A DNA stretch of 33,954 nt from NCBI GenBank assembly GCA_003645645.1, contig QNBH01000010.1, positions 1 to 33,954 of the forward strand, written 5' to 3'. Both the position numbers and the translations under genes were made by a program. The notes below the pieces were generated by a model, which saw only the letters and a program-made list of their open reading frames with translations, did not search any database and had not been told where the DNA came from. Source of the DNA: Spirochaetota bacterium. Its GTDB lineage: Bacteria > Spirochaetota > Spirochaetia > SPDA01 > B32-G16. Numbering within the stretch: position 1 is the first letter of the stretch; the number at the start of each line of letters is the position of its first letter. Below, piece by piece: positions 6,152 through 30,962 of the stretch.

Positions 6152-6166
6152 AAGCTTATATACTCC

Positions 6167-6949: not shown

Positions 6950-6961
6950 TTAAGCTCTCCT

Positions 6962-7918: not shown

Positions 7919-8672
7919 TTAAACCTCCTACTTTGTTTATGATTTCATCTATATGATCCAGTATTGGAGAATTGTTTAATTCTTTTACCGTCTCACCCTT
8001 ATAAATCAGCTCTTCCAGCTCAGGATCGAAGGGGATATCACAAAGCAGTTCAATACCGATGTCGGAAAGACGATCGTGGATTACAGGAAGCCTATGGTCC
8101 TGAACCATGTTGGCAACCAGATAACGGTTCTTTATTCTGGTATCAAGGCTGTCGGTAATTTCCTCAATTTTTTTTGCGGAATGAAGGGAAAGGGGGTTAT
8201 CGCTTACAACGATCAGAAGAGCGTCTATATTAGAGGTGGTTCTTCTGCTTATATGCTCCAACCCTGCCTCATTATCTATTACAACCCAGGAATAGGATGG
8301 TGTTAGATCATCGGAGAACTTTCTTATCATGTTGTTAAGAGAGCAGTAACAGCCCGCCCCTTCTCCTCTACCCATTGTTATAAGGTCGAATCCGTCTGCT
8401 TCCTCTATTATTTGATGAAGCCCGGCCTCCACATATTGAGGTTTTGACATTCCCGGAGGAAAGTTTTTTATTTCCTGAAGTATCTCCTCCCTGAGATCGC
8501 CTATTGATTTTCTTGAGTTCAAACCCAGAAGGGGGGCAAGATTCGAATCTGGGTCTGCATCGATTGCGAGTACGGGAGTTTGTCCAAGCCTACACAGCCT
8601 GGTAATCAGCAGAGCAGCGATGGTTGTCTTGCCTGTACCGCCCTTCCCGGAGACGGCTATGCTCTTAGCCAT
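7905..8672 (-). CDS. acsF: CooC/AcsF-type nickel-insertion ATPase
   Basis: A 255-residue P-loop ATPase of the MinD/CooC group. The deviant Walker A motif GKGGTGKTT is at residues 9-17. The DADPDSN switch is at 38-44. A C-x-C pair (C108, C110; GAGCYCSLNN) corresponds to the metal-binding pair of CooC dimers. Family members load nickel into the C-cluster of CO dehydrogenase or the A-cluster of acetyl-CoA synthase. Since a second, distinct CooC lies upstream of cooS, I assign this acs-embedded copy to acetyl-CoA synthase maturation (acsF), by context. It overlaps acsV by 16 bp and acsD by 14 bp, so all three are translationally coupled. A role shared between both enzymes is the alternative. Confidence 0.85.
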   Translation of the reverse strand: MAKSIAVSGKGGTGKTTIAALLITRLCRLGQTPVLAIDADPDSNLAPLLGLNSRKSIGDLREEILQEIKNFPPGMSKPQYVEAGLHQIIEEADGFDLITMGRGEGAGCYCSLNNMIRKFSDDLTPSYSWVVIDNEAGLEHISRRTTSNIDALLIVVSDNPLSLHSAKKIEEITDSLDTRIKNRYLVANMVQDHRLPVIHDRLSDIGIELLCDIPFDPELEELIYKGETVKELNNSPILDHIDEIINKVGGLNANS

Positions 8673-10558: not shown

Positions 10559-10575
10559 CTACTTTTTCCCTCAAA

Positions 10576-11913
10576 TCATTGTTTCGCCATTTTTTGAAGG
10601 AAAGCCGGAATCTCTCTGGCGTTTTCAGGACCTATTATCACTTCTTCCCATTCGGATGTATCTTCTATCTCTGCCCTGAAAATCGGAAGCAGTCCCGGAA
10701 TAATGAGTTTCCTGTGCTTTACCTTCTCCACTACTTTTTGTTCCTGCAGAGTCTTAACGACCTTTTCTGCAGAAATCTTATCGCCTGCGTATGCGTTGAG
10801 CACGCCGAGTCCCTCTGTATCCACCACACATATATAAGCGGGGACTTTGCTTCTCTCCACTTCCCCTGCCACGCTGAAATAAGTTAAGGAGAAGTTGGTA
10901 GTAAACATTACGGGTGAGTTTTCGGCTACATTGCCGATTTCGTAAAGCTTGGCTTCTACAGTATTTGGAACCTGAGGATTGGTGTAAACATCCTGGATGG
11001 TGGTAAGTATAGGGAGAATCTCCCATGGCTCTGAACCATTGATCAGGACGATAGCGCTGTACTTGGCAGCATAAATCGCTCCCAGAACCGTCTCCTCTTC
11101 CAGAGGTTCCGCCGTTATCTCTGTCATGGCAGGATAGCCGAACTCCCTGAATCTCTGTCTGAGTGCTGCTCTTCTGGCTATGGTAAGTGAACGGAGAGTG
11201 TCCCCCAGGTTATCTGTTTTAAAAGAGAGAATCAGGTTTTCGGCACCCTTCTCCCTGGCTTTGTTAGTAAGGTCAGCCAGTTCTTCCAGATTGGAGCCTC
11301 CCACAGCCAGAGGCAGTTTTGTGCTTGCCGACAGTTCTGCCATGGTATCGATATTGGAAGATTCGGCTCTGTAAAGTAGAGGATTTTTATGTTTGATTGT
11401 CTCTGCTGCGGATTTCATCTTTCCGGCATCCCTACCAATAAGGATAACCGGTACCTTGCTGTTTTCGGCTACAAGTTTTGCCCTCTTTCCGGGATCATCC
11501 ACCCCGTCCACTTCAACCGCAGAAAAGGAAACCTTTATGGTATCACCTACCCTGACCCACGCGCTCTTATTTATCTTTTCCACGAGGGCTGTTGCTTCCT
11601 CGTCGGAAAGAGAAGATGGTATCCTTACCGCTATACCGGTGCGTCTGTGGAACTTCTCCTCGTGGCGAAACATAACGGTCTCCTGCCCGATCTCGTAGCT
11701 GTTCTCTCCGATACCGATCTTTATCAGCTTCATTGGAGGAGCCGAAGCTTCTGCAAGACTCTCAGAAGCCTCTTCACTTATATGTGGACAATCGGAGAGA
11801 GCGCGCTGTTTTGCCGCCACCTGCATTGCAAAAGCCATACAGGTAGGAAGACCACAATCCTTACAGTTTGTTTTAGGAAGATTTTTGTATATCTGCATTC
11901 CGGTTAAAGCCAT
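10576..11913 (-). CDS. acsC: Corrinoid/iron-sulfur protein, large subunit
   Basis: About 445 residues. The N-terminal domain carries a [4Fe-4S] cluster; counted from an upstream GTG, its ligands are C19, C22, C27 and C44 in the NCKDCGLPTC motif, which reduces the cobalt. A TIM barrel follows, and then a C-terminal cobalamin-binding domain (VFTTNFSLTYFSVAGEVE, YAGDKISAEKVVKTL). The open frame begins at a GTG (11919), but I prefer the ATG at 11913 (MALTGMQIYKNLP). GGAG is then 8 bases upstream, and relatives start with the same M-x-L-T-G-L/M-x-I-Y pattern. The protein is the methyl acceptor of AcsE and the methyl donor to AcsB. It is separated from acsB by about 136 bp, the largest gap inside the operon. 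Confidence 0.95.
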   Translation of the reverse strand: MALTGMQIYKNLPKTNCKDCGLPTCMAFAMQVAAKQRALSDCPHISEEASESLAEASAPPMKLIKIGIGENSYEIGQETVMFRHEEKFHRRTGIAVRIPSSLSDEEATALVEKINKSAWVRVGDTIKVSFSAVEVDGVDDPGKRAKLVAENSKVPVILIGRDAGKMKSAAETIKHKNPLLYRAESSNIDTMAELSASTKLPLAVGGSNLEELADLTNKAREKGAENLILSFKTDNLGDTLRSLTIARRAALRQRFREFGYPAMTEITAEPLEEETVLGAIYAAKYSAIVLINGSEPWEILPILTTIQDVYTNPQVPNTVEAKLYEIGNVAENSPVMFTTNFSLTYFSVAGEVERSKVPAYICVVDTEGLGVLNAYAGDKISAEKVVKTLQEQKVVEKVKHRKLIIPGLLPIFRAEIEDTSEWEEVIIGPENAREIPAFLQKMAKQ

Positions 11914-12049
11914 AAACACAACTCCTTATATCACGGATTTAATTTTCCACTCCACATACCGCATGCTGGAACGGATATTTGCTTCTATTGATCTATCTTA
12001 CCGCAAGCCCTCTTGGACATTGTCTGTGCCGGCTATCGGACTTGTGCTT
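11914..12049. other. Intra-operon gap between acsB and acsC
   Basis: About 136 bases without a gene. It contains the acsC ribosome site (GGAG near 11922-11925 on the minus strand). I see no convincing hairpin, promoter or small gene in the rest. It could separate translation or allow transcript processing between acsB and acsC. Confidence 0.4.
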
Positions 12050-14266
12050 CTACATAATCGCTTCCATCTGCAGAGCAGGATGTCCTATCTTCTCCAGGTA
12101 CTGAAGAAGGGTTTCCGGATCTTCTGCTTCTTCCTCTGTGGCGATTTTATCAAACAGATCGGATATCCCCTGCCTTTCGAGTTCGGCTTTAAGCCTGTCA
12201 CCCACCTCTTCTTTGAGTTGTTTGGTCATCCACACGATCCGCTTCTGTCCGCCCTCCGCGGAGATGAACTTGGGACTGCTTATGTAGAGTTTACCTATTC
12301 CGACAAATCCGGGAGTCTGCACTCCTCCTCCTATCTGACCTGCAAGGGTGGAGAAGGTCATCCCAACGGGAGTCATGCCCGTATAGTCCCTGTCTACAAT
12401 CATGACTCCGTTGGCTTCGGGTACAATGGCCGCAATGCACTCGAAACAGCCGCAGGAGGTCATAGGGTCTTCCATCATGGAGTAGGCATTGAACCGCTTG
12501 AGGTTACCGTTGGACTTAACCTCTATGTAGTCGTTTATGTTCTTCCACATCCCCTTTACCGGATCGAGGCACTCTCCCTTGGCAACCGGCTCGTTCGGCC
12601 CGTGAGGGTCGATCTGATGAGAAGCCTTGCAGTCAAGCCATGTATAGGCGCCGCACAGCCCAAGCCTCTGCGGAGTAACTATACAGACATGGTTGGGAGC
12701 ATAGGACTGACAGAGGGTGCATGAGTAGTACTCATCTACATCTTCGTCTGTCATTCCGCCGATCTTGTCATCCCTCTGGCTGTAAACCTCTTTTGCCTCT
12801 TCTATAAGTTTTGCAACCTTTTCCTTTTCGGTGTAGAGCTTAACCTGTACCCTATCTACAATTTTGGAGAACTCTTCATGCATTCGGGCAAGAAGAATCT
12901 CACCGAAGTGCTTGATCTTAAAGCCCTTTGCATGGGCCTCTTTACTTATACGTACCCAGATGATATTTCTCTGACCCATGTGGAAGATTCCGTTGGCACA
13001 GGAGATAAACTCATGGATCCTTCGTTCGAGCACACTTTCAAAATCTTCCTGGAAATCCCTTCCAGCAACCTCAACTACTATACCCAGGGGATAGGCTTCC
13101 CCTTCTTTCATTTCATCTATCTCCTGCCCGATTACCTCTATCTTTCCGTCTTCAACTTCCTCCATGGGTTTCATCCGCAGAAGCTCAAAGGCATCGGTAT
13201 ATTTACCACCGAACTGGACGTACATGTTCTCCTTTCGCACCCTTTCGCCTTCGAAACCGGCTCCATAGGGTACAGGAATTGGTATTTTCTCTATCTTTAT
13301 GGTAAGTCCTCTTAACTCTATGGCTCTGCTTATTATCTCTTCGAGCCTTATCCCGGAGATCACATGCTCGTAGGTGCATATTCCGGTGGGAAGAATCTGG
13401 GGGATTTTTACATCGGCTATAACCGGGAATCCGAAGTTGATCGCTCCTGCTGCTGTAGCATACTTGTCGTCGGTGATAAGCTGGCTGTCCTCTGCAGCCT
13501 TATCGGCTCCCAGAGCCATTACAAAGGCGTGCACCCGGTCCTTGTTGTATAGAAGAATCTTGCGGGCAGCATCCATATCACCCGGCTCTATGCCTCCAAA
13601 TGTCATGGCAGAACGAGCTGCAAAGTTAAGGGCATGTACCGCTGCGGTTATCTCCTTCCCGTAGGGTACAAGGAAGGTATCCCAGTTCATTTCGATGTTC
13701 TCCTCGGCCAGTTGTTCTGCAATCGCCCGGCCATTGGTATGACCGGCCATGAATACAAGTATGTTTCTCTCCTGCAATCCTCTGACCAGCTTAACCGCAT
13801 CCTCATTCTTTTTGGTGCAGCCCACTATTGCTGCAAACCCCGGCATCCTGCCGTCTACCAGTTTAATCCCCTGAAGCCTTAAGATGTTGTCGGGGGTAAA
13901 ACCCAACCAGATACCTTGTACAGGGTTTTGCTCTCCGAGATATTTAAGCGCCTCTATTGTTTCCTCTGCAATGAGGGTCGCCACTCCCGAATCAAGTGTA
14001 TCTCCCAGGTAAGGAAGCCAGAGCTCATCCGAGGGGATATCTGCAAGAAGCTTTTTTGCCTCCTGCATACTCTCCTCCAGGTCTCCCAGCTTCTGAACTT
14101 TCTGCCCCAGAAAAAGATACATAATAGGCAGATAGTATGCGGTGTTGGGATAATCAACCGGATGTTCCTTGCCGTATTTATCTATTGCTTTCTGAAGCTC
14201 CACTTCCGCCTGACCTACAAGCTTGTGGGCGCCTCTAATTGCAGCGGTTGCTATGATTTTAGACAT
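12050..14266 (-). CDS. acsB: Acetyl-CoA synthase catalytic subunit
   Basis: A 738-residue enzyme that assembles acetyl-CoA from CO, the methyl group on AcsC/AcsD and CoA. All A-cluster ligands are found. C516, C519, C528 and C538 hold the [4Fe-4S] part (motif SCTLCQSYAPNHVC). C605 and C607 (the CGC motif) with C519 hold the two nickel ions. Each is offset by exactly ten from the Moorella numbering. The N-terminal domain that forms the CO tunnel with CO dehydrogenase is present, so this is the bacterial-type long form. AGGAGG precedes the start. In most acetogens acsB directly follows acsA/cooS; here four genes (a ferredoxin and three diaphorase subunits) lie between them on the same strand. 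Confidence 0.97.
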   Translation of the reverse strand: MSKIIATAAIRGAHKLVGQAEVELQKAIDKYGKEHPVDYPNTAYYLPIMYLFLGQKVQKLGDLEESMQEAKKLLADIPSDELWLPYLGDTLDSGVATLIAEETIEALKYLGEQNPVQGIWLGFTPDNILRLQGIKLVDGRMPGFAAIVGCTKKNEDAVKLVRGLQERNILVFMAGHTNGRAIAEQLAEENIEMNWDTFLVPYGKEITAAVHALNFAARSAMTFGGIEPGDMDAARKILLYNKDRVHAFVMALGADKAAEDSQLITDDKYATAAGAINFGFPVIADVKIPQILPTGICTYEHVISGIRLEEIISRAIELRGLTIKIEKIPIPVPYGAGFEGERVRKENMYVQFGGKYTDAFELLRMKPMEEVEDGKIEVIGQEIDEMKEGEAYPLGIVVEVAGRDFQEDFESVLERRIHEFISCANGIFHMGQRNIIWVRISKEAHAKGFKIKHFGEILLARMHEEFSKIVDRVQVKLYTEKEKVAKLIEEAKEVYSQRDDKIGGMTDEDVDEYYSCTLCQSYAPNHVCIVTPQRLGLCGAYTWLDCKASHQIDPHGPNEPVAKGECLDPVKGMWKNINDYIEVKSNGNLKRFNAYSMMEDPMTSCGCFECIAAIVPEANGVMIVDRDYTGMTPVGMTFSTLAGQIGGGVQTPGFVGIGKLYISSPKFISAEGGQKRIVWMTKQLKEEVGDRLKAELERQGISDLFDKIATEEEAEDPETLLQYLEKIGHPALQMEAIM

Positions 14267-14306
14267 CTCTAAATACCCTCCTTGCCTGGTTTCCTTATTA
14301 TATAAT

Positions 14307-15086
14307 TTAATAACTCGATACCCTGAACTTTTTCCTTCTGCATTCAGGGCATAACTCGTATATTTTTTCGCTTACTCCTGATTTTCCGTTTAACCTTTTT
14401 AAATACTGTGATGAGACAAATCGTCTCCCGCAGGATTTGCATTCTATCATAGTGATCTCGAAATCGAACATTCTTTCGAACTTGATCCCTTTAGCAGTTT
14501 CTTTTATTTTTATTGCTCCTGTGGGACAGACGTATTCGCAGGCTCTGCATCCAATACAGTTGGAGCTTCCAACATTAAGGGGGGTTATAACCTCTTTCTC
14601 CACTCCCCGATAGGCCGAGCCAATTGCATGGGCTCCTATGATTTCATTACAGACCCGGTAGCACAATCCGCATAAAATACAATCGGGTTTTCCCTTATCG
14701 AGAGGCTCGAACCTGTCGGTCCTGGCTCCGTATTTCTCTGCAAGCTTGTGCAGAGACTCAGAGCCCGGTGCTCTAAGAAGAAGAAGCTCAAGGATAAGGC
14801 GCCGTTGACGGATAACTTTTTCCGAGTTTGTAAGAACCTTTAATCCATCACTAACCGGATAAACACAGGAAGCATCCAGCCAGCTTCTCTTCTTTCCGTT
14901 TTTTTCTATGCTTAGCTCGACAATGCAGACTCTGCATGAGCCCTGTGGAGGCAGAGCCTCGTGGAAACATAGGGTTGGAATGTATATACCAAGTTCTTTT
15001 GCTGCTTCCAGAACAGAACTGCCTTCGGGCATCCTTGTTTTTTTACCATCAATTTCGATCTCAATAATTCCGGATTCTTTTTTCAT
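14307..15086 (-). CDS. HoxU/NuoG-N-terminal-like iron-sulfur subunit of the diaphorase module
   Basis: About 259-260 residues; GTG and ATG occur in tandem at the start and I prefer the ATG. Counting from the GTG, a plant-type [2Fe-2S] domain uses C41, C52, C55 and C75. The region where NuoG holds a His-Cys [4Fe-4S] cluster (about 104-120) has lost its cysteines. Two [4Fe-4S] clusters follow: C137/140/143/147 and C178/181/184/188. The C-terminus adds two C-x-x-C pairs (217/220 and 247/250), like a zinc or rubredoxin-type knuckle. There is no molybdopterin or H-cluster domain, so the protein is an electron wire, not a catalytic subunit. It directly follows the NuoF-like gene and precedes acsB. 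HoxU of bidirectional hydrogenases is the nearest functional analogue I can name. Confidence 0.88.
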   Translation of the reverse strand: MKKESGIIEIEIDGKKTRMPEGSSVLEAAKELGIYIPTLCFHEALPPQGSCRVCIVELSIEKNGKKRSWLDASCVYPVSDGLKVLTNSEKVIRQRRLILELLLLRAPGSESLHKLAEKYGARTDRFEPLDKGKPDCILCGLCYRVCNEIIGAHAIGSAYRGVEKEVITPLNVGSSNCIGCRACEYVCPTGAIKIKETAKGIKFERMFDFEITMIECKSCGRRFVSSQYLKRLNGKSGVSEKIYELCPECRRKKFRVSSY

Positions 15087-15089
15087 CAC

Positions 15090-16952
15090 TTACACCTTTA
15101 TAACCGCATCGTAACGACACACATCGAAACAAATGCCACACTTGATACACTTCTCCTGTATAATCGAATGGGGTTGTTTTCTTTCACCTACAATAGCATC
15201 CTGCGGACATCTTTTCAGACACAGCATACATCCGGTACACTTCTCTTCTAAAATAGCAAAGTTAAAAAGGTTTTTACAAACCCCTGCAGGACATTTCTTA
15301 TCGGTTATATGCTTCTCGTACTCATCACGAAAATAACGGATGGTGCTTAAAACCGGGTTTGGTGCCGTCTTGCCAAGCGCACAAAGAGAGGCATCCCGAA
15401 CAGTTTCTGCAATCTCTTCTAAAAGCTCTATATCACCCTCTTTACCTTCACCCTCGGTGATACGGTTAAGTATCTGGTATAGCTGGTAATTGCCGTCTCT
15501 GCAGGGCGTACATTTACCACACGACTCCTCTACCAGGAAAGATAAGAAGTATCTGGCCACATCCACCATGCAGGTATCTTCGTCCATTACTATCATGCCG
15601 CCCGAACCCATCATTGAGCCAACCCTGGTAAGCTCATCGAAGTCGACGGGCATATCGAGTAGCTCTGAGGGAATGCATCCTCCCGATGGGCCTCCTGTCT
15701 GCACGGCTTTGAACTTCTTCCCTCCGGGAATGCCTCCGCCTATATCAAATATTATCTGTTTTAGTGTTATTCCCATGGGGACTTCAACCAGACCGGTATT
15801 TACAACCTTGCCTACCAGAGAAAATATTTTTGTCCCCTTACTGTTTTCGGTTCCGATACTTCTGTACCAGTCGGCTCCCCTGTTGATGATTATGGGTACA
15901 TTTGCCCATGTCTCCACATTGTTGAGGTTGGTAGGCCGTTCGTACAGTCCGCTTTCGGAGGTATGGATGTGCTTTGTTCTGGGCTCCCCAACTTTGCCTT
16001 CTATGGAAAGCATGAGGGCTGTAGACTCCCCGCACACAAAAGCACCCCCACCCTTTGAGATTTTAATATCGAAGGACAGGTCTGTGCCCAGGATATTCTC
16101 CCCTAAAAGTCCGTACTCTCTGGCTTTCTCCAGGGCTACGAGCAGGTTTTCAACCGCCAGCGGGTATTCATTTCTCACGTAAACATACCCCTGATTTGCT
16201 CCGATGGCATAGGCTCCTATTATCATCCCCTCGATAACAGAATGGGGATTACCCTCCAGCAGGCTTCTGTCCATATAGGCGCCGGGGTCTCCCTCGTCTG
16301 CATTGCAGATAACATATTTTATATCACCCTCTGCATTACGGGTAGAACGCCACTTCCTTCCGGTGGGGAATCCGCCTCCCCCTCTGCCTCTTAAGCCCGA
16401 TTTTTCTATCTCTTCGATTACCTGTTCCGGAGTCATTTCTGTAAGAACTTTCGCCAGGGCCGAATAACCATCTACACCGAAATAATCCTCTATGCTTCTG
16501 GGATCTATATGGCCGTTCTGACCAAAAACAAGACGCTTCTGCCACTTATAGAATGGAATCTCCTCTTCTTTTACGATCTGTTTCTTATCTTCCGGAAGTA
16601 CGTAGAGCAGGGACTCTATGATTTCGCCGGAGAGGATAGTTTTATCTACTATTTGTATTACATCTTCCGGTTTTACATGCTGGTAGAAAATGTTATCCGG
16701 TCTTATCACCACCAGCGGCCCCTTTTCGCATAATCCATGGCAGCCGGTTTCTTTTAGTACGATGTTCTCTTCTATATTTTTCTTTTTAAACTCTTCTTTA
16801 AAAGCTGATATGAGAGATACGGCCTTATTGGCTCTACAGCCTGTACCGGCACAGATTGCAACCGACTTTTCCCATTTCTCTTTTCTTTGAGAGTATTTCT
16901 TGTTAAGCTCGTACAACTCATCTATATTTTTTATTGCTGTTGCTGTTTTCAT
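15090..16952 (-). CDS. NuoF/HydB-type NAD(P)H-binding flavoprotein subunit
   Basis: A 620-residue subunit with the three-part HydB layout. The N-terminal thioredoxin-like [2Fe-2S] domain has C34, C39, C71 and C75. The central FMN and NAD(H)-binding NuoF core has [30 protein letters not shown] and [13 protein letters not shown]. Near its C-terminal side is the [12 protein letters not shown] site for a [4Fe-4S] cluster. A C-terminal bacterial ferredoxin tail (last 52 residues) carries two [4Fe-4S] clusters. The extra N- and C-terminal domains are typical of electron-bifurcating hydrogenases and formate dehydrogenases rather than of complex I. It overlaps the NuoE-like gene by the 4-bp ATGA. The partner catalytic subunit here is most plausibly CooS (inference from synteny). 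Confidence 0.93.
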
Positions 16953-17440
16953 TTTTTACTGTACTCTTTAAGTAATCTCGAAACTTTAGATGTTACCATA
17001 TTTCCGTGATACTCCCCGTTTACTACCATTATAGGACCCAGGGCACATGCCCCCAGACAGTTTACGGTTTCGAGGGAAAACTCCCCGTCCTCCGAGGTAT
17101 CCCCGCTTTTAATTCCTATCTGCCTTTCGATTTCCTCCAAAATTTGCTGAGCCCCCCTTACATGACAGGCGGTCCCCATGCATACCTGGATGATATTTCT
17201 CCCCTTGGGCTTTAATGAGAACGCCTTGTAGAAGGTAGCCACCGAATAAACCTGATGCAGTGGAATATCGAGGTATTTTGCTGTTTCGGAAACCGATTCC
17301 TGAGGGATATAATTGAATGTTTTTTGAATTTCCTGAAGGATGGCTATAAGGGATTCGGAAGTATTATGGAATTTTTTCAAAATGCCTTTTATATCTTTTA
17401 TATCTATGCCTGTTTTTTCCTTCTCCTGGATTTGTTCCAT
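16949..17440 (-). CDS. NuoE/HydC-type [2Fe-2S] subunit
   Basis: A 163-residue thioredoxin-like protein of the 24-kDa complex I subunit family. An N-terminal helical region (residues about 20-75) includes the [16 protein letters not shown] motif typical of the family. The [2Fe-2S] ligands are C87, C92, C128 and C132 (VCMGTAC and CLGAC). With the NuoF-like subunit it forms the NADH-oxidising tip. The stop overlaps the next start by 4 bp, so the two subunits are made in equal amounts. The upstream ferredoxin gene ends 9 bp before it. Nothing is missing relative to functional homologues. Confidence 0.93.
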
Positions 17441-17449
17441 GGTTACATT

Positions 17450-17965
17450 TTATCCTTTCTCAAGACTTACCTTGTATTTTCGAATACTCTCTTTTCGTTT
17501 TTCAAGGTTAAGTTCGGAAACTTCCACATATTTTATAGCCCCTGTAGGACAACCGGCAGCACATGCAGGATCTTTGCCCTCTTCAAGCCTCTCGTAACAG
17601 AGGTCGCACTTGGTGAGTGTTTTCCCGTCGGAATCGCGTTTTATAACCCCGAAGGGACACACAATTATACAGGCATTACATCCTATGCATTTATCCCTGT
17701 TGAGGATAACCGGGCTCTCTTCGTTGGGTCTGGACATGGCCTGAGTGGGGCAAACCGCAATGCAGGGTGCATCCTTGCAATGCCTGCAGTGGATGGGGAA
17801 AGTTTCGCTCTCCTCGTATTCGAGTATTATACGGGGAAAGCGTATTTCCTCTGCATTTACTGCGCTTTCGAGAGTTTTCTCTTCGGAATGGGCTGCGGCG
17901 CATTCCAGTACGCAGGTCTTGCATGCCATACATCTTTCGCTTCTTACTACGAGAATTTTATCCAT
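17450..17965 (-). CDS. Four-cluster ferredoxin, CooF/HydN-like
   Basis: A 171-residue polyferredoxin with sixteen cysteines in four groups: C12/15/18/22, C60/63/68/72, C93/96/99/103 and C120/123/135/139. This is the layout of CooF and other DMSO-reductase-type electron-transfer subunits, each cluster being [4Fe-4S]. It lies 11 bp after cooS and 9 bp before the NuoE-like gene, so it is positioned to carry electrons between the CO dehydrogenase and the diaphorase module. There is no signal peptide, so it is cytoplasmic. I leave the symbol empty because CooF proper is defined by its partner hydrogenase, which is absent here. Confidence 0.9.
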   Translation of the reverse strand: MDKILVVRSERCMACKTCVLECAAAHSEEKTLESAVNAEEIRFPRIILEYEESETFPIHCRHCKDAPCIAVCPTQAMSRPNEESPVILNRDKCIGCNACIIVCPFGVIKRDSDGKTLTKCDLCYERLEEGKDPACAAGCPTGAIKYVEVSELNLEKRKESIRKYKVSLEKG

Positions 17966-17976
17966 ATACTGTCCCC

Positions 17977-19902
17977 TTATTCTTCCGGTTTAAAAGCCTG
18001 CTTGTACATCATGGGTTTAAGTCTTAAAGCCTTTCTCTTTTTGTCTATGTGTCTGAGCATCTTGTGGGCTGCCTTAACAGGATCCGGTTCGAATGCCCAT
18101 TTACCGCCTACCTCTTTTTCTATGTCTTCTGTGAGGTACTTGTACACATTCTTGCTCCCTTCTATGGGGAGGGGATGATTTATCAAGGTATATACCCCGG
18201 AGGCCACAAAGTACATCCCTATGGCAACTGCCTTCTCGGACATCCACTCCGGAGCTGCCCCTGCTACAGGCAGGTCGGATATATCGTTACCCAGCCCCCC
18301 TTCTGCAACAACATTGGCCAGCACACGTAGAATCCTGCTGTTATCAACACATGATCCGAGGTGCAGAACCGGAGGTATGCCTACGGCTCTGCATATTTCC
18401 TGCAATCCTTCGCCTGCATATTTAAAGGCGGTTTCAGGCTGTAATAGGCCGTGTTTAGCACAGGAGATGGCGTTACATCCGGTAGTAACAACCAGGGTAT
18501 CGTTTTTGATAAGCTCTTTTACAATTGTTATGTGGTTTTCTTCGTACTCGGTATTGGGATTGGAGCAGCCCACCACACCTGCAGCCCCTCTGAGCCTTCC
18601 CTGAATGACAGCATCGTTTAGAGGACGGTAGGTAGATCGGTACTTACCTCCCAGAAATTGAAATACCGACTCGGTTGTAAAACCTGCCACAAGCTTCTCC
18701 GTATGTTCAGGAAGCAGTATGCCGTGACCGTTTCTATTGGCGAAGTTTTCGATTGCAGACTCTACTATCTGCCTGGCTATTTTTACGGCATCCTTCTCGT
18801 TGAACTCGATGTGCTCAACACCATCGATTTTAGCCTTTGGTGATGTTGTAATCAGCTTCGTGTGAAATCGTCTGGCCACATCCCTGAGACCGGGCATGAG
18901 GCACTGCACATCTATTACCATGAGGTCCACAAGACCTGTAACCATTGCAAGTTCCTGCTGTAGAAAACTGCCTGCAATGGGAATTCCCCGCCGCATGAGT
19001 ATCTCGTTGGCGGTACAGCAGATTCCTGCAACTCCGATACCGTCTGCGCCCTTTGCCTTAGCCTTTTCTACAAGCTCTTTATCCTGTGCCACTGTAGCGA
19101 TAATGTCTGAGAGCACAGGCTCATGGCCGTGTACTACCAGGTTGATTTTCTCTTTTTTAAGGATACCAAGGTTGGCCATGGATTTGATGGGGTTGGGTAT
19201 TCCGAAAAGCACATCCTGGAGCTCAGTGGCAATCATCGACCCGCCCCATCCGTCTCCAAGGGAAGCTCTCATCCCCTGTTTGATAACATTTTTATAATCT
19301 GCATCCACCCCCATGGTGGTGCGGTGCATGATCTCCACGATTTCTCTGTCTACAGAACGTGGGAATATCCCCAGTTCTCTCCATAGTTTTTGTCTTGCAG
19401 GAGGAGCTGTGGTTGCCATCACTATGGTGCCTTCCTGCCTGCCAAACTCTTCCATGGTTTTTCTGGCGACATCCTTTGCGATTTCTTTTATATCCCTGTC
19501 CTTGGTCTCAACTCCGTATATTTTGGCTACAGCCTTCAGTTTTTCTTCGTTTTTTATTTTATAGTCGCTGTCGGGATTCTCCGCCGCCATTAAGAGAGTA
19601 TGGGAGATATCCCGGCCGTGGTCGGAATGGGCTGCCGAACCTCCTGCTATCATCCTTACCAGATTTCTGGCTACGATTGTATCGGCATTGGCTCCGCAAA
19701 TACCAACCTGCGGCCCTTCCCCGAAGGGATCAATACGGCAGGGGCCCATGGTACATATTCTGCAACATATTCCCATGGTACCGAACCCGCACTGGGGTTG
19801 CATCTTTTCATACCTGTCCCATACCACCTCTATATTCTGTTCTGCTGCGTAAGCTCTTAACTGGCGAGATGCTTCGTCTGCAAACTTAAGTTCTTTGGCC
19901 AT
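17977..19902 (-). CDS. cooS: Nickel-dependent carbon monoxide dehydrogenase catalytic subunit
   Basis: A 641-residue enzyme that interconverts CO and CO2 (called AcsA when bound to acetyl-CoA synthase). D-cluster ligands are C38 and C46. B-cluster ligands are C47, C50, C55 and C69, each one position below the Carboxydothermus CODH-II numbering. The C-cluster ligand motifs are all present: VVHGHEPVLSD (His), GICCTANE, VQCLMPG, GVVGCSNPN, TTGCNAISC and HLGSCVDNSR. The start has GGAGG 5 bases upstream. It heads the operon on the minus strand and is separated from cooC by 385 bp with its own candidate promoter. Its neighbours suggest dual use, with AcsB and with the NADH-linked module, but the sequence alone cannot show which complex forms. 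Confidence 0.97.
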   Translation of the reverse strand: MAKELKFADEASRQLRAYAAEQNIEVVWDRYEKMQPQCGFGTMGICCRICTMGPCRIDPFGEGPQVGICGANADTIVARNLVRMIAGGSAAHSDHGRDISHTLLMAAENPDSDYKIKNEEKLKAVAKIYGVETKDRDIKEIAKDVARKTMEEFGRQEGTIVMATTAPPARQKLWRELGIFPRSVDREIVEIMHRTTMGVDADYKNVIKQGMRASLGDGWGGSMIATELQDVLFGIPNPIKSMANLGILKKEKINLVVHGHEPVLSDIIATVAQDKELVEKAKAKGADGIGVAGICCTANEILMRRGIPIAGSFLQQELAMVTGLVDLMVIDVQCLMPGLRDVARRFHTKLITTSPKAKIDGVEHIEFNEKDAVKIARQIVESAIENFANRNGHGILLPEHTEKLVAGFTTESVFQFLGGKYRSTYRPLNDAVIQGRLRGAAGVVGCSNPNTEYEENHITIVKELIKNDTLVVTTGCNAISCAKHGLLQPETAFKYAGEGLQEICRAVGIPPVLHLGSCVDNSRILRVLANVVAEGGLGNDISDLPVAGAAPEWMSEKAVAIGMYFVASGVYTLINHPLPIEGSKNVYKYLTEDIEKEVGGKWAFEPDPVKAAHKMLRHIDKKRKALRLKPMMYKQAFKPEE

Positions 19903-20149
19903 GATTTCCTCCGGTATTTTGATCGTATGTATATTGCGTTGAAAACTTACAGGGATAAGGGAATATTTTTAATAACATACCTCAGAGAGTTGGGCTTTGG
20001 CTTTTCTTCGTATTTTCTAATATAAATATATGGAAATATTGCAGTAGATAGCAAGGGAGCCAAGCTCGTATTAATACCCTTTTGCCCTGAAAGCTTAATA
20101 AGGCATTTTGCATGTAAAGCTTCATTGCTGTTATACAACCTTCGGCCTT

Positions 20150-20178
20150 ATTGTAGCAGTTCTTCTATTTCATTACAA
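20150..20178 (-). promoter_or_regulatory. Candidate sigma70-type promoter of the cooS-acs operon
   Basis: On the minus strand TTGTAA (20173-20178) and TACAAT (20150-20155) are exactly 17 bp apart, four and five matches of six to the consensus. Transcription would start near 20143, giving a leader of about 240 bases before cooS. This is supported by consensus and position only. Confidence 0.4.
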
Positions 20179-20253
20179 GTGGCAAGCATGAAAATTTTAA
20201 TAAGGTTCGGATTTATACACCAGATAGGTATAAAACCGTGGTTTTTTTAGTCC

Positions 20254-20284
20254 TAAAAAGTGTCAAAAAGGCTGGCCCGACACC
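20254..20284 (-). terminator. Probable intrinsic terminator after cooC
   Basis: Just after the cooC stop the minus strand reads GAGGTGTC, a 14-base loop, then GACAC and TTTTT. About ten pairs form if two G-U pairs are allowed, followed by a T run. This would separate cooC transcription from the cooS operon, at least partly. Confidence 0.45.
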
Positions 20285-20287
20285 TCT

Positions 20288-21043
20288 TTATAGTTTATGA
20301 ATGAGCTCTTCCACCTGTTGTAAAGGCCGTCCCTGAACTTCCATTGCCGTAATGATGCGAAGGTTGATCTTTTTTATTTCGCTGGAATACTCGATATGTC
20401 CAACCAGGGGTAGATCTCCAAGGTTCTCTTTCAGGAATTGAAGCTCCTCCTCGTCTTGAATTTTATTACCCACTACAGCAAGCTTCTTTATTCCTATGTC
20501 TCCTGCAAGTTTCTCTATCCGATGGGAGGTTTCCAGGCTTGCCCTGCTGGGCTCAACTACTATCAGCATTACATCTACACCCAGAGCCGTACCCCTTCCC
20601 AGATGTTCAATGCCTGCCTCCATGTCCAAAAGCACCCATTCTTCCCTTGCGATAACAAGGTGAGTAAGCAGGCTCTTGAGGAACGCATTCTCCGGGCAGG
20701 CACATCCCCCTCCGCCTCTGGATACGGTACCCATCACCAGGAGTTTTATCCCTTTGTGCTCAATACAGTACCGGTCGGGAATATCATCAACCTTTGGATT
20801 CATTGTGAAAAACGGGGCCGGCTGGCCCGGTTCTACACCAGTTCTTTCCGCTATCAGCTCCTTCATCTCCGAAATGGGGGTAATCTTCCGGTTTTCCGGA
20901 ACGCCGAGTATTCCGAAGAGGTTCATGTCGGGATCTGCATCGATGGCGATTACCCTGTCTCCCCTTTCGCTTATCACCCTTGCCATGAGCGCAACAAGGG
21001 TGCTCTTCCCCACACCTCCCTTTCCTGTTACGGCAATCTTCAT
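20288..21043 (-). CDS. cooC: CO dehydrogenase nickel-insertion ATPase CooC
   Basis: A 251-residue P-loop ATPase. The deviant Walker A motif GKGGVGKS is at residues 7-14, the DADPDMN switch at 35-41, and the metal-binding C-x-C at C114 and C116 (GGGCACPENAF). These cysteines match the CooC dimer site that binds nickel for insertion into the CO dehydrogenase C-cluster. AGGAG lies 5 bases before the ATG. It lies upstream of cooS on the same strand, as in many acetogens, but with 385 bp and a likely terminator between them. The second CooC-family ATPase inside the acs operon has a different loop sequence (GAGCYC), consistent with a division of labour between the two metal sites. Confidence 0.94.
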   Translation of the reverse strand: MKIAVTGKGGVGKSTLVALMARVISERGDRVIAIDADPDMNLFGILGVPENRKITPISEMKELIAERTGVEPGQPAPFFTMNPKVDDIPDRYCIEHKGIKLLVMGTVSRGGGGCACPENAFLKSLLTHLVIAREEWVLLDMEAGIEHLGRGTALGVDVMLIVVEPSRASLETSHRIEKLAGDIGIKKLAVVGNKIQDEEELQFLKENLGDLPLVGHIEYSSEIKKINLRIITAMEVQGRPLQQVEELIHKL

Positions 21044-21100
21044 GGTAGCTCCTCATTTTAACCCGGAATCAATAGGCCGATTCACGGTTTTAAGAATCTC

Positions 21101-22039: not shown

Positions 22040-22693
22040 TTAAGCTCCACAGCAATATTTATACTTTTTCCCGCTGCCACAAGGACAGGGGTCATTTCGA
22101 CCAACTTTTCGGCCAGTATTATTTGTTATTGACCTGTTAGATTTATATTTACGTCGATAATTTAAATAAATTCTTCTAAAATTATTATGCCGATTCCTAA
22201 AAATATTATCAATATCTGGATTTTCTCTGTGTAATTTTTCAAATATTTTCTGAATTGAATACTTTGCTCTTTTATCTTCTCTTTTTATCTCCCTTTTCCC
22301 TTCTTTATAATCATAAACTATACTTGTTGCATCATAGCCATCTCTTATCCTATCTCCATTTTCAGGTATTTCAATAACACTCAAACCAGCATCAGTACAA
22401 TTACAGGTGGATGCCAGACAATATTGATCATAAATTAGATAAGTAATATTATCAAATTTAACTTTAAAGGTTTTACAATAAGGAAATATCTCTTGATAGC
22501 CACACATGTAACCTTCATTTTCTATTTTATATTCATTAGAAGAAAAGTCTATTTCAATATTATTTACATCTGGATTCTCAGATAATCCAGCTTTATAACT
22601 ATAAAAAAAATCTCTAAAATCTTTCCAGTTTTCTTCACTTAATTCAGAAATAAAGGCTTGATAAAACTCAAGCTTATTCCACAGGGCTTGCAA
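22040..22693 (-). CDS. AT-rich protein with C-terminal SEC-C zinc motif
   Basis: 217 residues. The C-terminal 20 residues are a textbook SEC-C motif ([18 protein letters not shown]), which binds zinc and is shared with SecA and many uncharacterised proteins. The rest is a tyrosine- and asparagine-rich alpha/beta region with scattered cysteines that I do not recognise. The gene is far more AT-rich than every neighbour, a sign of recent acquisition. The only start is a TTG at 22691-22693. Its first codons lie inside a remnant of the 192-bp repeat described elsewhere in the window (about 22681-22726), so the true start could be further in. There is no operon partner. Confidence 0.7.
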
Positions 22694-22726
22694 AGCCTTA
22701 GGCTTATCGGCGATTATTTACTTGCA
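22681..22726 (+). repeat. Partial, diverged copy of the 192-bp palindromic repeat (right end only)
   Basis: About 46 bases align without gaps to the right end of the full copy at 25076-25267 (bases 25227 onward), with about 8 mismatches. They keep the GCAAAGCCTTAGGCTT hairpin core and the degenerate right arm. The left part of the element is missing. The start of the AT-rich SEC-C gene overlaps it on the other strand. Confidence 0.6.
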
Positions 22727-25075: not shown

Positions 25076-25267
25076 ATTTTACTACGAAAGAAAGCTTTGT
25101 ACCTATTGCGGTGGTCCATCAGTCTTCTAGCTGGGGGACACACTGCAGGCTATGCCCGCTGGCTTTCTTTCGGCGCAAACAACCACCTAAGTAGTTTCCG
25201 CTTAAGCGGAAACTACTTAGCCCTTACAGGGCTCGCAAAGCCTTAGGCTTTGCCGGTGGTTGTTTAC
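25076..25267 (+). repeat. 192-bp structured repeat, copy A
   Basis: This matches copy B (30771-30962, opposite strand) over 192 bases with 16 differences and no gap. It contains a 10-bp stem (25086-25095 with 25162-25171). An 11-bp outer stem (25177-25187 with 25255-25265) encloses three hairpins. These are a perfect 34-bp palindrome at 25187-25220 centred on CTTAAG, AGCCCT-TAC-AGGGCT at 25219-25233, and GCAAAGCC-TTA-GGCTTTGC at 25235-25253. Drawn out, the right half is a cloverleaf. It ends about 50 bases before the TTG start of the chemoreceptor gene. It may be a MITE-like element, a structured RNA, or both. Confidence 0.85.
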
Positions 25268-25317: not shown

Positions 25318-27015
25318 TTGAACGAGGAATATCGAAGCGAACTACTTTCACAGCTGGATGCATTGAGATCGCTTCAGCAATCTTTGTCGAGTCATATATG
25401 GAGCATGATCTCGGTATCTGAGCTTAATACAGCCTATGTGCGTGAGATGATAGCCTCGAATGAACAGAATGTTGAGGCAATCTCCGGAGTACATGAAGAG
25501 CTCGGGAAAATCACCGAGTCTTCTGAAAAAATAGTCAGATACACAGATTCCTCTCTCGAGAAGCTTGAGGAAAGTAAGCAGGCTTTTAACAATACCCAGG
25601 AGACGGTTACAGACTTTGCACATGCTTTAAAAGATATGGATGCAAGATTTGAACGTTTTCGAAGGCTCTTCTCACAATTTGAAGAGGCGAGCGAAAGAAT
25701 CTTTGAAACCGTCAGGGCAATTGAGGATGTCTCGGTTTTAAATAATCTGTTGGCACTGAACGCTGCTATCGAGGCTGCTCGGGCAGGTGAGCTTGGCAAG
25801 GGTTTTCGAGTTGTGGCCGGTGAGGTTAAGAAACTGGCCGAACGTAGTAAAGGTCTTACCGATACCATTACAGGCTTGCTTAAAGCATTGAGAGAAAACT
25901 TCACTGCCAGCTTTCAAAGCCTGAAGGAGTATGAGGCGATTGAGAATCAAATTTCAGAGAAGATTAAGTCTACAGAGAGTGAGCTAATTACATCGATCAA
26001 GGCTTTGGGACGGGTGGATGAAGAGATGCATAAGATCTCCGATGCAGTACGCAGTCAATCAACCAATACCGAGCAAATATACGAACATGCGGGTAAACTC
26101 AAACAGTCGGCCAATGTGCTTAAGGATAGTTCAAAGCACATCATAACCAGTCTCGAATATCAATCTCAATCGTTGAGAGAACTGGGGAGGCTCGATCGTG
26201 ACAGCAAGAGGCTTATTACGATTCGAGAGCAGAAGCTCCAGGAACTTGGTATGATAAGCGCACAGGAATCCTCGATTACTGTGGGACACGATATTGCCTA
26301 TCCGCCATGGGTACACATAAGCGGTGGCTCCTCTACCGGTCTTAGTGTGAAAATTATGGATCTTCTGGCAGGGCAACTGGGAGTGCGAATAAGGTATAAC
26401 GCCAATCAGTTTGAAGAAGTACTTAAGGATTTTTTTGAAGGCGATACAAGGATTATTTTAAACCTTGGTTGGCCCAACCCCGTATTTGATGGCCGGCCTG
26501 TGGTTGTAAGCAAATCCTATGCACAATTTGAACCAGTAATTTTTGTACACAAAGCTTCCCTCTTAGAGGATGGAGTTACCTTAAGCGCGGAAGATTTTCG
26601 GGGAAAGAGAATTGCCGCCCAGCGGGGTTCCTATGCTGCAGACAGTCTTAAGCCGTACAATTGCCAGATAATTTATGTGGATAACGACATCCAGGGGATT
26701 GCCAAGCTAATCTGGCGAGAGGTGGAAGGTGTAGTTACCGAAAAGAATGTAGGCCTTTATTTTTCCAGGCAGTTTTTTGGGGGTGAGATTGTGCCTGCCA
26801 CAAGAGCGGAGGTGCTCCTCGATGTGGTGATGGTGTTTCGGGAGGATGATAAGGAGTTACGGGATGGGATCAATCGCCTGCTCGATGACCCGACAATCCG
26901 CACAGAAATTGAGAAGATCTTGAGCAAACAATGGAGAAGCTACGAGGATTCGATTACACATAATGTAGCACAGACTGCCGAGTGCACCATGGGTTCGTTC
27001 GTAAGCGATCCATAA
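25318..27015 (+). CDS. Soluble methyl-accepting chemotaxis protein fused to a solute-binding (SBP family 3-like) domain
   Basis: 565 residues with no signal peptide and no membrane helix. Residues about 1-310 are a long helical chemoreceptor signalling region with the conserved hairpin tip ([23 protein letters not shown], in part, residues 137-175), which docks CheA/CheW. Residues about 318-545 look like a family 3 periplasmic amino-acid-binding fold ([39 protein letters not shown]). Such domains normally sit outside the cell, but here the domain follows the signalling region and must be cytoplasmic, a reversed order. The protein would sense an intracellular solute or partner. The start is the TTG at 25318, set by the strong ribosome site. 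Methylation-site glutamates cannot be assigned with certainty. Confidence 0.85.
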
Positions 27016-27016
27016 A

Positions 27017-27041
27017 CCCCACCCTGTTTAACAGGATGGGG
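27017..27041 (+). terminator. Hairpin directly after the chemoreceptor stop
   Basis: CCCCACCCTG (27017-27026) pairs with CAGGATGGGG (27032-27041) with one mismatch and a 5-base loop, starting 2 bases after the TAA. No T run follows, so it may be an mRNA 3-prime stabiliser or a Rho-assisted end rather than a simple intrinsic terminator. Confidence 0.4.
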
Positions 27042-27293
27042 TAAGCAGTATCTCTTGAGTAAGATTTTTAAGGCAGGAGAGTTTCCTACTGTCCTGTCTC
27101 TTCTACGTATCGAAATCTCCGATCGCATCTGTAGACGTATTACGATGCGCTATTGTTTAAGGTAGATTTTGTTTTTTCGCGTTTAAGAGTTTAGGTAAAA
27201 AAATAAAATCTCGACTCTAAATAGTGTATAGTTAACCGCCCTGCCTAAAGCAAGAGAAACTCCATTGCCGAGACACCACCCCCCTAGACTTTA

Positions 27294-27374: not shown

Positions 27375-27529
27375 TTACGATTCCTCCTCCGAAAATTTAA
27401 TCCGCCCTGTTCTGGCTGGTAATTTTCATCGTTTTGATTGTCCAATGGGGTCGTGTAGACTCATTTAAAAATATTTTAAGCAATCATGGAGTAATATTGA
27501 CCTCATTTACAGGTGGGTTTATGAAGCGC
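27375..27529. other. Gene-free stretch near the end of the GGDEF-EAL gene
   Basis: Together with 27042-27293 this makes up the 0.5-kb gap between the two convergent signalling genes. Apart from the hairpin and the IS66-type remnant I see no gene, RNA or repeat. The sequence is AT-rich and may be further insertion-sequence debris. Confidence 0.3.
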
Positions 27530-30500
27530 TTACGAACCGAGCTGCTTTTTGAAACCCCCTTTTAAAAACTCCTCGAACTCATCAGCAGGGAGGGGTCGGC
27601 TTAAGTAATATCCCTGAATCATGTCGCATCCCTGGTAGCGTAAAAACTTAAGCTGCTCTTCGGTTTCTACGCCTTCGGCTCCAGTTTTTTATATTAAGAT
27701 TATGCGCCATTGAAATGATAGCATTTACCACAGAAACAGCCTCCCTGTCATGAGGAAGGTCGTCTACAAAGGATTTGTCGATTTTAAGGGTATCTATTGG
27801 AAACCTTCTCAAGCAGGATAGCGATGAGTAGCCGGTGCCGAAATCGTCCAGAGTGATCATGATGCCGGCCTCGTGTAAGGCATTTAGTATGGAAACTGCC
27901 CTTTTTATATCCCCTGCAAAAACACTCTCAGTTACCTCGAGTTCCAGCAATTTCCTGGGAAGTTCTGTTTCTTCCAGTACAGATAAAACGAGTTCCACTA
28001 TATCCTGCTCCCAGAATTGCACTGCCGATATGTTTACAACTACTCTAAGATCGGAATATCCCTGTTTAAGCAAAAGCCTTGTTCCTCGACACGCCTCCTG
28101 CAAAATCCACCTTCCGAGAGGGATTATAAGTCTTGTTTCCTCGGTCAGCGGGATAAAGGAACCGGGAGAGACCAGTCCCATTTCAGGGTTATTCCAGCGT
28201 ATTAAAACCTCCATTCCGGATATATGGCCGTTATTTAAGTCCGCTTTAGGCTGATAGTAGACAATAAACTCTCTCCTTTCCAGAGCCAGACGCAGTTTAT
28301 TCTCGAGTAAAAGCCTCTTCTGCATTTTGCTGTCAATCTCTTTTTTGTAATGACTGAAGGTATTTTTGCCGTACGATTTTGCCTGGTACAGAGCAATGTT
28401 GGCATTTTTAATGAGTTCTTCGAAAGTTTCTCCATCCCCCGGAAAGATGGCAATACCCGCACTGGTAGTCAGGTAATATTCGCCCTTGTCAATTTTAAAA
28501 GGTTCTTTCATCAGATCGAATATTCTTCTTACTACAGTAACGGACTCCTCGGGGTTATCGGCCTCCTGAAATAGCAGTAAAAACTCATCTCCTCCGGGCC
28601 GGGATACAGTTACACCGTCTTTGAAGGAAGAAGAGAGCCTTTTTCCCATCATTTTAAGAACTTCATCGCCTGTGAGAAAACCCAGAGTTTCATTCAAATT
28701 TTTAAAATTATCAATATCCATGGATATTACTATAATACTTTTCTGAGAGCGTTTTGAATGACCCTGAGCTGTATTCAAATGATCTATAAACAGATTACGG
28801 TTGGGAAGACTTGTTAAGGCATCATGATAGGCTTGATACTCCAGTTGTTCTTCCTTGTTTCTTATATCCGTGCGGTCGTGAAAAACTCCTACGTACTTAG
28901 TGGTTTCTCCTGAGCTATCCTTAATTGCACTTATGGCAAGCCATTCCGGGCAGGCTTCTCCCGATTTACGACGGTTCCAGATCTCCCCCTCCCAGCATCC
29001 TTTCTCAACCCGTGCTTCCCACATTTGCTGGTAAAAGTCTCTGTCATGCTTATCGGATTTAAGAATACGAGGTGTTTTCCCTATGAGTTCCTCTGCAGTA
29101 TATCCCGTTATGCTTGTAAAGCATCGGTTGATACTCAGTATAGTCCCCTTTGTATCGGTAACAACCACCCCCTCCAATGCATTCTCGAAGACCTGACTTG
29201 CAAGCTCAAGCTGATCTTCCGCCTTTTTACGCTCGGTAATATCCCTTATAGAGCCGACTGCAAAAAATCTTCCTCCTGCTTCAACCGTTCTTACCACCAT
29301 CTCTACCGGAAATTGTTCGCCGTTTTTTCGTACTGCAATACATTCCTGTAGATGTCCCGTGATTTTACCGCTTCCGACCCGCCGAAAGGACTCCATCGCT
29401 CTTTGAGTCTTCTTAAAAAACCTCCGGGGAGCAATAAGTGAGTGAAGTTCCTGACCTCGCATCTCCTCTTCCGTATAACCGAATATGCTTTCTGCAGTGT
29501 TATTCCAGAAAATAGTCTCCCCTCTGTCGTTTATGAGTGCGACCGCATCGGGAAGGGAGTTTAATACCAGACGGAACTTTTTCTCACTTTCTCTGTGTTT
29601 CCGACGGGCTTCGGTCCACCACAATACAATCAAAACAAGGAAAGAGAGAAAACCGGTACCCATTATGATAGAAAGATTTAACCAGGGAGGAATAAGACTT
29701 TCTTTCGGCATGAATGAGAGAATCTTCCAGCTTTCAGCCCATTCTACTGTGATTGGCTCGCCCGAGGCATGCGGGAAGGGCGCTTCCGGAGAGAGGGGTT
29801 TAAAAGTAAATAGACCTCGTCTGGTTATAAACTGACCTTTTTCCATCTCTGAGATCTTTCTCCACTCTTCGGGGAAGAGTCTTTCCATAGACTGAGATTT
29901 TCTCTCCTCCAGCATAAAACCCCATTCAGCTTCGTGTTCCGGGCCCGGGAGCCAGTACCCTTCGGTATTGATAAGGAGAATCTTCCCTTCGGAGCCCTGA
30001 GCGATTCTCCCGAGACGATCAAGAATGACATCGCCCAGAAAGTTCAGTACCACCACTCCAAGCCTTTCTCTTTCAACCTCTCCTTTAAAAACCGGCGCCA
30101 CAATTCTTGTTACCGGTTTAAAGGGTCTTTCCACTTCCCCATGCTCAACATTTAAATCAAACTGTGATACCCAGCGCGGCATAGCCGCAACCAAATAAAA
30201 AATTTTGTTAAAATAACAAAATCCGGGAATTTAATAGCATAGAGCGTTGCCTCTGTTTCCATCCCTCTAACAAAATAGGGGCGGGCAACTTTATTCTGAA
30301 GATCCTCTTCCGGAACAACGACGGGTCCCGCCTCGGTTAAATCGATCTGCATAGTTTCTTTTCCATTTTTATCTATAAACATCACCTGGTCGTAAACACC
30401 TCTGGCTTCGGTGAAATAAAAGAACTCTTCTACAAGCTCAGGGTAGATTCCGTACCTTCTTTTATCATCGTCTATCTATAAGCCTGTAAGGCTGCACAGA

Positions 30501-30720
30501 AATACTGCATCGGAGATATGTGTAGAGAGGATTGTTTCTATATACTGAGACTCCCTTTTAAGAAAATCTTTCTGGTCTGTACGCAGCGATATTCTGTAAT
30601 TCCTCAACTGCATCAATACTACCAGAGCAAAGACGGCTACAAGCAAAGCAGCCAGGGAAATAAATAGTCTTAGAAACCCTCTTATAAACTCACCCTTTTG
30701 TTTCTCTATATAATCCCCCT
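27530..30720 (-). pseudogene. dCache-PAS-PAS-GGDEF-EAL sensor protein with one stop and two frameshifts
   Basis: The gene begins near 30700 with a membrane helix (FLRLFISLAALLVAVFALVVL, in part), then an extracytoplasmic dCache-like domain. Lesions are: TAG in frame at 30476-30478; a frameshift near the A6 run 30197-30202, where adding one base joins the domain to WVSQFDLNVEHGE; and a frameshift at the T6 run 27687-27692, where skipping one base restores AEGVETEEQLKFLRYQG and the normal end at 27530. The intact 848-codon middle has the rest of dCache, a second membrane helix, two PAS domains, GGDEF (RPGGDEF intact) and EAL (EVL variant, DDFGTGYSSL intact). It would both make and break cyclic di-GMP. 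No clear start codon is visible, and the left limit is approximate. Confidence 0.78.
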
Positions 30721-30770: not shown

Positions 30771-30962
30771 GCAAACAACCACCTGCAAAGCCTAAGGCTT
30801 TGCGAACCCTGTAAGGGCTAAGTAGTTTCCGCTTAAGCGGAAACTACTTAGGTGGTTGTTTGCTCCGAAAGAAAGCCAGCAGGCACAGCCTGTAGTGTGT
30901 CGCAAAGCTGGAAGACATAAGGACCACCGCCATAGGTACAAAGCTTTCTTTTGTAGTAAAAT
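30771..30962 (-). repeat. 192-bp structured repeat, copy B (inverted relative to copy A)
   Basis: This is the reverse complement of copy A with 16 substitutions and no gap, about 92 percent identity. The 34-bp palindrome and the outer arms are unchanged. One difference in the AGCCCT/AGGGCT hairpin turns a G-C pair into a G-U pair when read on the element's own strand. It starts 17 bp after the stop of the 684-residue gene and ends about 50-80 bases before the start region of the dCache-GGDEF-EAL gene, the same placement that copy A has before the chemoreceptor gene. Confidence 0.85.

Follow-up and report, generated by a model that had tools for sequence, protein, structure and literature searches.

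The repeated cloverleaf in this stretch of DNA (33,954 nucleotides of contig QNBH01000010.1 from a Spirochaetota bacterium, here called the window) is a known kind of mobile element, abundant and with unusually elaborate ends. Very probably it is a non-autonomous, transposase-free element of the PATE (palindrome-associated transposable element) type that a one-tyrosine (Y1) HUH transposase of the IS200/IS605 class mobilizes in trans, in single-stranded form. The element is noncoding and is built like IS200/IS605-type (PATE) elements.

The exact repeated unit is 190 bp long and was found as copy A (25078-25267, plus strand) and copy B (30771-30960, minus strand), which share 92% identity. It starts with TTTACTAC, ends with GTGGTTGTTTAC, and carries TTTAC at each end, the right end of copy B being TTTGC. 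The initial annotation had described a colinear repeat free of indels, and this was borne out for an inverted pair on opposite strands (194 nt, 92% complementary, no indel). In copy A, the mobile element proper (TACGAAAG...TTTAC, 185 bp) occupies 25083..25267 (+) and is preceded by TTTAC (25078..25082, +), the left flank and target sequence; the corresponding positions for copy B are 30771..30955 (-) and 30956..30960 (-). The left module of copy A (25086..25171, +) consists of a closing stem, GAAAGAAAGC/GCTTTCTTTC, enclosing rearranged inner hairpins. At its 5′ base stands AAAG (25087..25090, +), a candidate guide (G_L) that is the same tetranucleotide in the same kind of position as the G_L of IS608 (PMC5934647). 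The right module (25175..25267, +) was matched by a covariance model and folds as had been described, a stem (GCAAACAACCACC/GGTGGTTGTTTAC) with three hairpins, the first of which is the reported perfect 34-bp palindrome (25187..25220, +; 30818-30851 in copy B). The module finishes with an element-borne TTTAC (25263..25267, +), the candidate right cleavage site (C_R). A "separate 10-bp stem" noted earlier is real, but it is the closing stem of a second cloverleaf that is intact in a sister subfamily and rearranged here. The reported remnant (22670..22721, +) is also genuine and comprises the final 52 bp of a right end, terminating in TTTAC; it reads AAGCTTATTCCACAGGGCTTGCAAAGCCTTAGGCTTATCGGCGATTATTTAC, the right end of a four-hairpin variant known from contigs C199, C331, and C348. 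An extra hairpin inside the right module (CCCTGTGGAATAATCGCC...TTATTCCACAGGG) was seen in C348, C199, C331, and C217 (L211, L212, L210, and L175) and may itself be a small insertion.

To count copies, we searched the organism's own genome (3.98 Mb, 380 contigs). A DNA search returned 40 copies or partial copies, about half of them at 86 to 98% identity and most others at 76 to 80%. Matches to two covariance models (R1, right module; R2, left module) were then merged, giving at least 84 dispersed places, with 55 full-length, 22 left-only, and 7 right-only matches; several of the partial copies sit at contig ends. In deletion forms of ~36 to 60 bp, both ends survive, with the left motif, a hairpin, and the TTTAC terminus.

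The copies split into two subfamilies, the "A-type" of the window and a better-preserved "B-type." B-type elements fold as two cloverleaves in tandem, both near-perfect, in each of which a stem bears three hairpins. The left module is closed by GAAAGAAGG...CCTTCTTTC and contains the hairpins CCACCACC-TAT-GGTGGTGG, TCCACCGGTC-GAAA-GACCGGTGGA, and GACGGGC-TTAA-GCCCGTC; the right module is closed by ACAACCACC...GGTGGTTGT and contains three more. A-type elements retain the right module and the left closing stem, with the left inner hairpins rearranged. A related element with a different interior, e.g., TTTAC followed by TACGAGAATAACACCACCGG...AGCCACCTGCAAGCAGGTGGCTTTTAC, was also observed (C176:1440 [L187] and C20:9475 [L305]) and is nearer to the element of another genome of the class, G124.

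Insertion site and element ends

In an alignment of 40 copies, the boundaries are sharp: the flanks of different copies are unrelated up to the left TTTAC and beyond the right TTTAC. TTTAC was present at the left of 47 of the 55 full-length matches and at the right of 46, and five copies end in TTTGC. The ends were fixed by empty sites in repeat H, an unrelated second high-copy repeat (TACAGTCGAGATTTTGTTTTTTTACCTAAATTTTTAAACGCGAAAAAACAAAATCTACC...; at least 40 copies, L215-L244) that forms a long AT-rich hairpin and often lies at contig ends. In a comparison among repeat H copies of this one genome, the empty site reads ..GTTTTTTTAC-CTAAATTTTT.. (at longer reading, ..GATTTTGTTTTTTTAC-CTAAATTTTTAAACGCG..), the hyphen marking the insertion point, and the filled site reads ..TTTAC-(TACG...)-CTAAATTTTT.. 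(..TTTAC-(TACG...)-CTAAATTTTTAAACGCG..). The left TTTAC is thus native to repeat H, and the overall conversion is from TTTAC-C to TTTAC-(TACGAAAG...TTTAC)-C. Variant C35 has TATAC as its right pentamer, base-paired within the element's own stem, which assigns the right pentamer to the element and the left one to the target; since the right pentamer changes with the element, it is not a target duplication. Tandem copies (C16 and C8) have one TTTAC in common.

A pyrimidine immediately follows the insertion site in 45 of 50 cases, compared with 56% at other TTTAC sites (P = 1.8e-7). Repeat H is a preferred target of the element: at least six insertions lie in its TTTAC, at the mouth or loop of its predicted hairpin, against an expectation of 0.28 (P = 4.6e-7), although amplification of a composite copy could raise the number of insertions artificially. 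The copy of repeat H in the window (27120..27219, -) is uninterrupted. It lies within ~540 bp enclosed by 23-bp inverted repeats (26997-27019 and 27515-27537, 91% complementary), which could be the ends of another element.

The element itself reads TACG-AAAG-hairpin after the flanking TTTAC, with a pyrimidine at +1. We propose that, when one strand becomes single stranded, the left and right modules would fold as cloverleaves whose bases hold the termini, and their hairpins would be bound by the transposase. The AAAG beside the left stem would pair with the left-flank TTTAC (TTAC), and the right-end cut would be made at the element's own terminal TTTAC. This TTTAC is partly within the stem in the commonest right module, where a right-end guide is not obvious. 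Excision would yield a single-strand circle, which would reinsert 3′ of another single-stranded TTTAC, preferably one with a pyrimidine next.

The mobilizing enzyme

The element encodes no Y1 HUH transposase, and four Y1 genes were found in the genome: two degenerate IS200-like genes, one RAYT, and one long RAYT-like gene, none within a copy. The initial annotation had advised looking for a full-length transposon with the same ends; none of the 103 places matching the left-end motif TTTACTACGAAAG proved to be an ORF-bearing element with these exact ends. The IS200-like genes of the class point to the IS200/IS605 group by their ends. Their left-end hairpin, CCACCGCCTATGGCGGTGG compared with CCACCACCTATGGTGGTGG in the element, takes forms such as CCACCGCC-TRT-GGCGGTGG, including at the two relics in the same genome, and resembles the element's first hairpin. 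Right ends of the form AAAG-CCACC..-N-TTTAC were found at these relics (L041 and L044) and in G104; variants with TTGAC or TTGAT occur elsewhere. No TTTAC closely precedes the left hairpin of the relics, and their left boundary could not be placed.

Within the same explanation, the enzyme could be a RAYT (REP-associated tyrosine transposase) and the element an oversized REP/REPIN-like repeat instead of an IS200-derived PATE; the single-strand chemistry would be unchanged, and the transposase would be chromosomally fixed. We regard this version as possible but somewhat doubtful. In its favor, 5 of the 6 genomes that have a left cloverleaf contain a RAYT of one clade (own copy L043, C68:2001-2510), as against 25 of the 142 that lack it (P = 0.0013, kinship ignored); IS200-like TnpA shows no such association (1/6 versus 10/142 genomes). 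The left module is also flanked by CTAC/GTAG and GGAG. However, no cloverleaf was found close to any of the 33 Y1 loci scanned, RAYT loci included, and one genome, G006, has the cloverleaf without a RAYT of this clade. CTAC 5′ of a hairpin is the reverse of the GTAG-hairpin layout of REPs, which at 20 to 40 bp (PMC3733652) are far smaller than the element, and the terminal hairpins and TTTAC fit the IS200-like genes better. A motif, GGGACGGAGG, precedes the RAYT genes of three genomes (L043, L253, and L261) and is possibly the RAYT's own end or a REP-like sequence.

Fold, gene context, and remaining alternatives

Copies A and B fold far below dinucleotide-shuffled sequences (z scores of -10.6 and -7.7), and in the covariance analysis, 17 pairs were changed on both sides, compared with 10.0 ± 1.6 in shuffles. 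These data support a fold that is maintained, but they do not argue for an RNA, because quasi-palindrome correction also yields double changes of the kind seen in some of these pairs. Folding of single-stranded DNA for transposition, together with quasi-palindrome correction, explains the covariation without an RNA function.

The initial annotation had offered a structured 5′ regulatory RNA, or an element that became one, as an explanation and had placed both full copies just upstream of a signal transduction gene. For copy A this holds: an MCP-like signaling ORF with an SBP_bac_3 domain (25318..27015, +), a neighbor only, starts 50 bp downstream, and copy A is probably in the leader of this gene and may affect it incidentally. 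For copy B it is less apt: another ORF ends 19 bp before this copy, and the called start of the PAS-GGDEF-EAL ORF (27648..30194, -), likewise a neighbor only, is 576 bp away. Across the genome, there is no such pattern. When copies flanked by called genes on either side were considered (n = 62), the next gene downstream was sense in 32 cases and antisense in 30; 39 sites lie between codirectional genes, 14 between divergent genes, and 9 between convergent genes. All four gene arrangements are seen. Gene distances are approximate because ORF calling was simple (80 amino acids or more). This neutral context refutes a general regulatory role, of which nothing gives a hint.

The very stable fold, the both-side changes, and the position of copy A are what a riboswitch-like leader of signaling genes would have to recommend it, and we consider such a leader, or an element turned into one, improbable. 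Beyond the neutral orientation, neither Rfam threshold gave a match to the element, its two strands fold about equally well, and a search for wobble bias (G-T versus A-C) that could single out an active strand revealed no clear asymmetry. Copy length ranges from ~36 bp to full, with differing inner modules, and some compensatory pairs reflect two changes within one copy of a family that is ~95% identical, which fits quasi-palindrome correction.

Two further features of the window were noted. On the minus strand at 30195-30700, a stretch of membrane segments that looks in frame after copy B hits a stop codon ~290 bp from copy B; the PAS-GGDEF-EAL ORF seems to be without its start, and therefore the gene may be disrupted. 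At 6100-21100, also on the minus strand, ORF translations alone indicate a compact gene region resembling the Wood-Ljungdahl pathway (CODH/acetyl coenzyme A synthase, a corrinoid protein, and hydrogenase-like subunits).

The element had also been called MITE-like. That is right in substance, given many dispersed copies, sharp ends, and empty sites, but it is not a classical MITE, since it lacks terminal inverted repeats (left end, TACGAAAGAA; reverse complement of the right end, GTAAACAACC) and the one pentamer found at both ends is an invariant TTTAC, of which the right copy is element borne. A conventional MITE of a DDE transposase, duplicating a fixed TTTAC as a 5-bp target site duplication, would account for the TTTAC that bounds most copies on both sides, and is nevertheless quite improbable: the right pentamer varies with the element and belongs to its stem, as the TATAC of C35 and the five TTTGC ends illustrate, and we saw no DDE gene bounded by ends of this kind. 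A stand-alone guide (omega) RNA or the end of a TnpB/IscB element, with TTTAC as the target-adjacent motif, is the least credible reading; IS605-type ends with a TTTAC flank resemble a TnpB/IscB arrangement, but the strands fold alike, the mini-forms retain the ends only, and we dropped it because the TnpB-type domain (PF07282) is absent from the genome.

Relatives and known systems

A DNA search of 60 relatives gave no match beyond the organism's own genome, and relatives of the element emerged only with the covariance model. An exact 17-base left-end pattern matched 52 times in the genome collection, about the chance expectation, and 7 times in the viral collection, in no case with a right end. 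The left cloverleaf, with the same hairpin order and a TTTAC-like sequence before it but different stem sequences, was recovered from G001, G002, G006, G093, and G124, which belong to five further families within the class; in G124, the middle hairpin is weak. AAAG or AGAAG is present in all five. A complete element was delimited in G002 (TTTAC followed by TACAAAAG...GTCGTTTAC), and the right end in G124 reads AAAG-CCACCTGCTCTGCAGGTGG-TCTTTTAC.

PATEs were defined in Haloquadratum walsbyi (PMC3119063) by palindromes near both ends, no terminal inverted repeats, no target duplication, and a length too short for a transposase. The definition fits the element on every point tested: its two ends differ, without terminal inverted repeats; palindromes lie close to both termini; it inserts beside a 4- to 5-bp left target without duplicating it, as empty and filled copies of repeat H demonstrate; and it is too short for a transposase, no longer ORF-bearing version having been found. 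In its terminal palindromes, too, it is similar to IS200/IS605-type transposons found in the host group (the left-end hairpin and the AAAG-hairpin-TTTAC right end), the weakest of the five points because the similarity is short. Core-deleted mini-forms and occurrence inside other mobile elements are further features in common with the Haloquadratum PATEs. Those PATEs were described as having near-terminal palindromes; the present element, by contrast, has a cloverleaf at each end, modular right ends, and bacterial hosts.

IS608 inserts 3′ of a TTAC that is retained in the left flank. The AAAG guide that reads this TTAC sits at the 5′ base of the hairpin on the left, and the IS608 transposase favors a pyrimidine at +1 (PMC5934647). 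The element likewise has TTAC kept at the left, AAAG as a candidate guide at the 5′ base of its left hairpin structure, a +1 pyrimidine, and subterminal hairpins. It differs in having neither tnpA nor tnpB, in its right cleavage site, which would be TTTAC instead of TCAA, in the distance of the candidate guide from the cut (5 to 8 nt, versus about 15 to 18 in IS608), and in its hairpins, which are compound where those of IS608 are simple.

REP/REPIN sequences and their RAYTs (PMC2817692, PMC3116915, and PMC3733652) provide a second parallel, as high-copy, mostly intergenic palindromic repeats tied to a Y1 transposase, with the co-occurring RAYT clade here. REPs carry GTAG or CGTC at one end; the element is larger and of another layout, no copy flanks a RAYT here, and the element has IS200-like ends and a defined target, TTTAC. 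Borrelia plasmids carry free-standing IS605 stem-loops (PMC2775950), which are also IS605-type end hairpins without a transposase gene and with compensatory changes, but they are single and tied to lipoprotein genes, with no element boundaries or target site established.

The ends of IS200/IS605-type elements are usually drawn as a single small hairpin each. Tentatively, and as a view that may well need revision, we suggest that the element belongs to a distinct lineage of single-strand transposition substrates, in which compensatory change has maintained compound cloverleaf ends (a guide-bearing stem plus three hairpins) in no fewer than six families of a single bacterial class, right ends have been swapped as modules, and TTTAC exposed in the loops of other repeats' hairpins is preferred. 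A transposase-free element with two four-way-junction ends has reached at least 84 copies in this genome. Its ~36- to 60-bp forms, reduced to the guide-like motif, a hairpin, and the TTTAC terminus, constitute a natural deletion series of transposase requirements, and its preference for loop targets makes the single-strand-target model testable in genomes.
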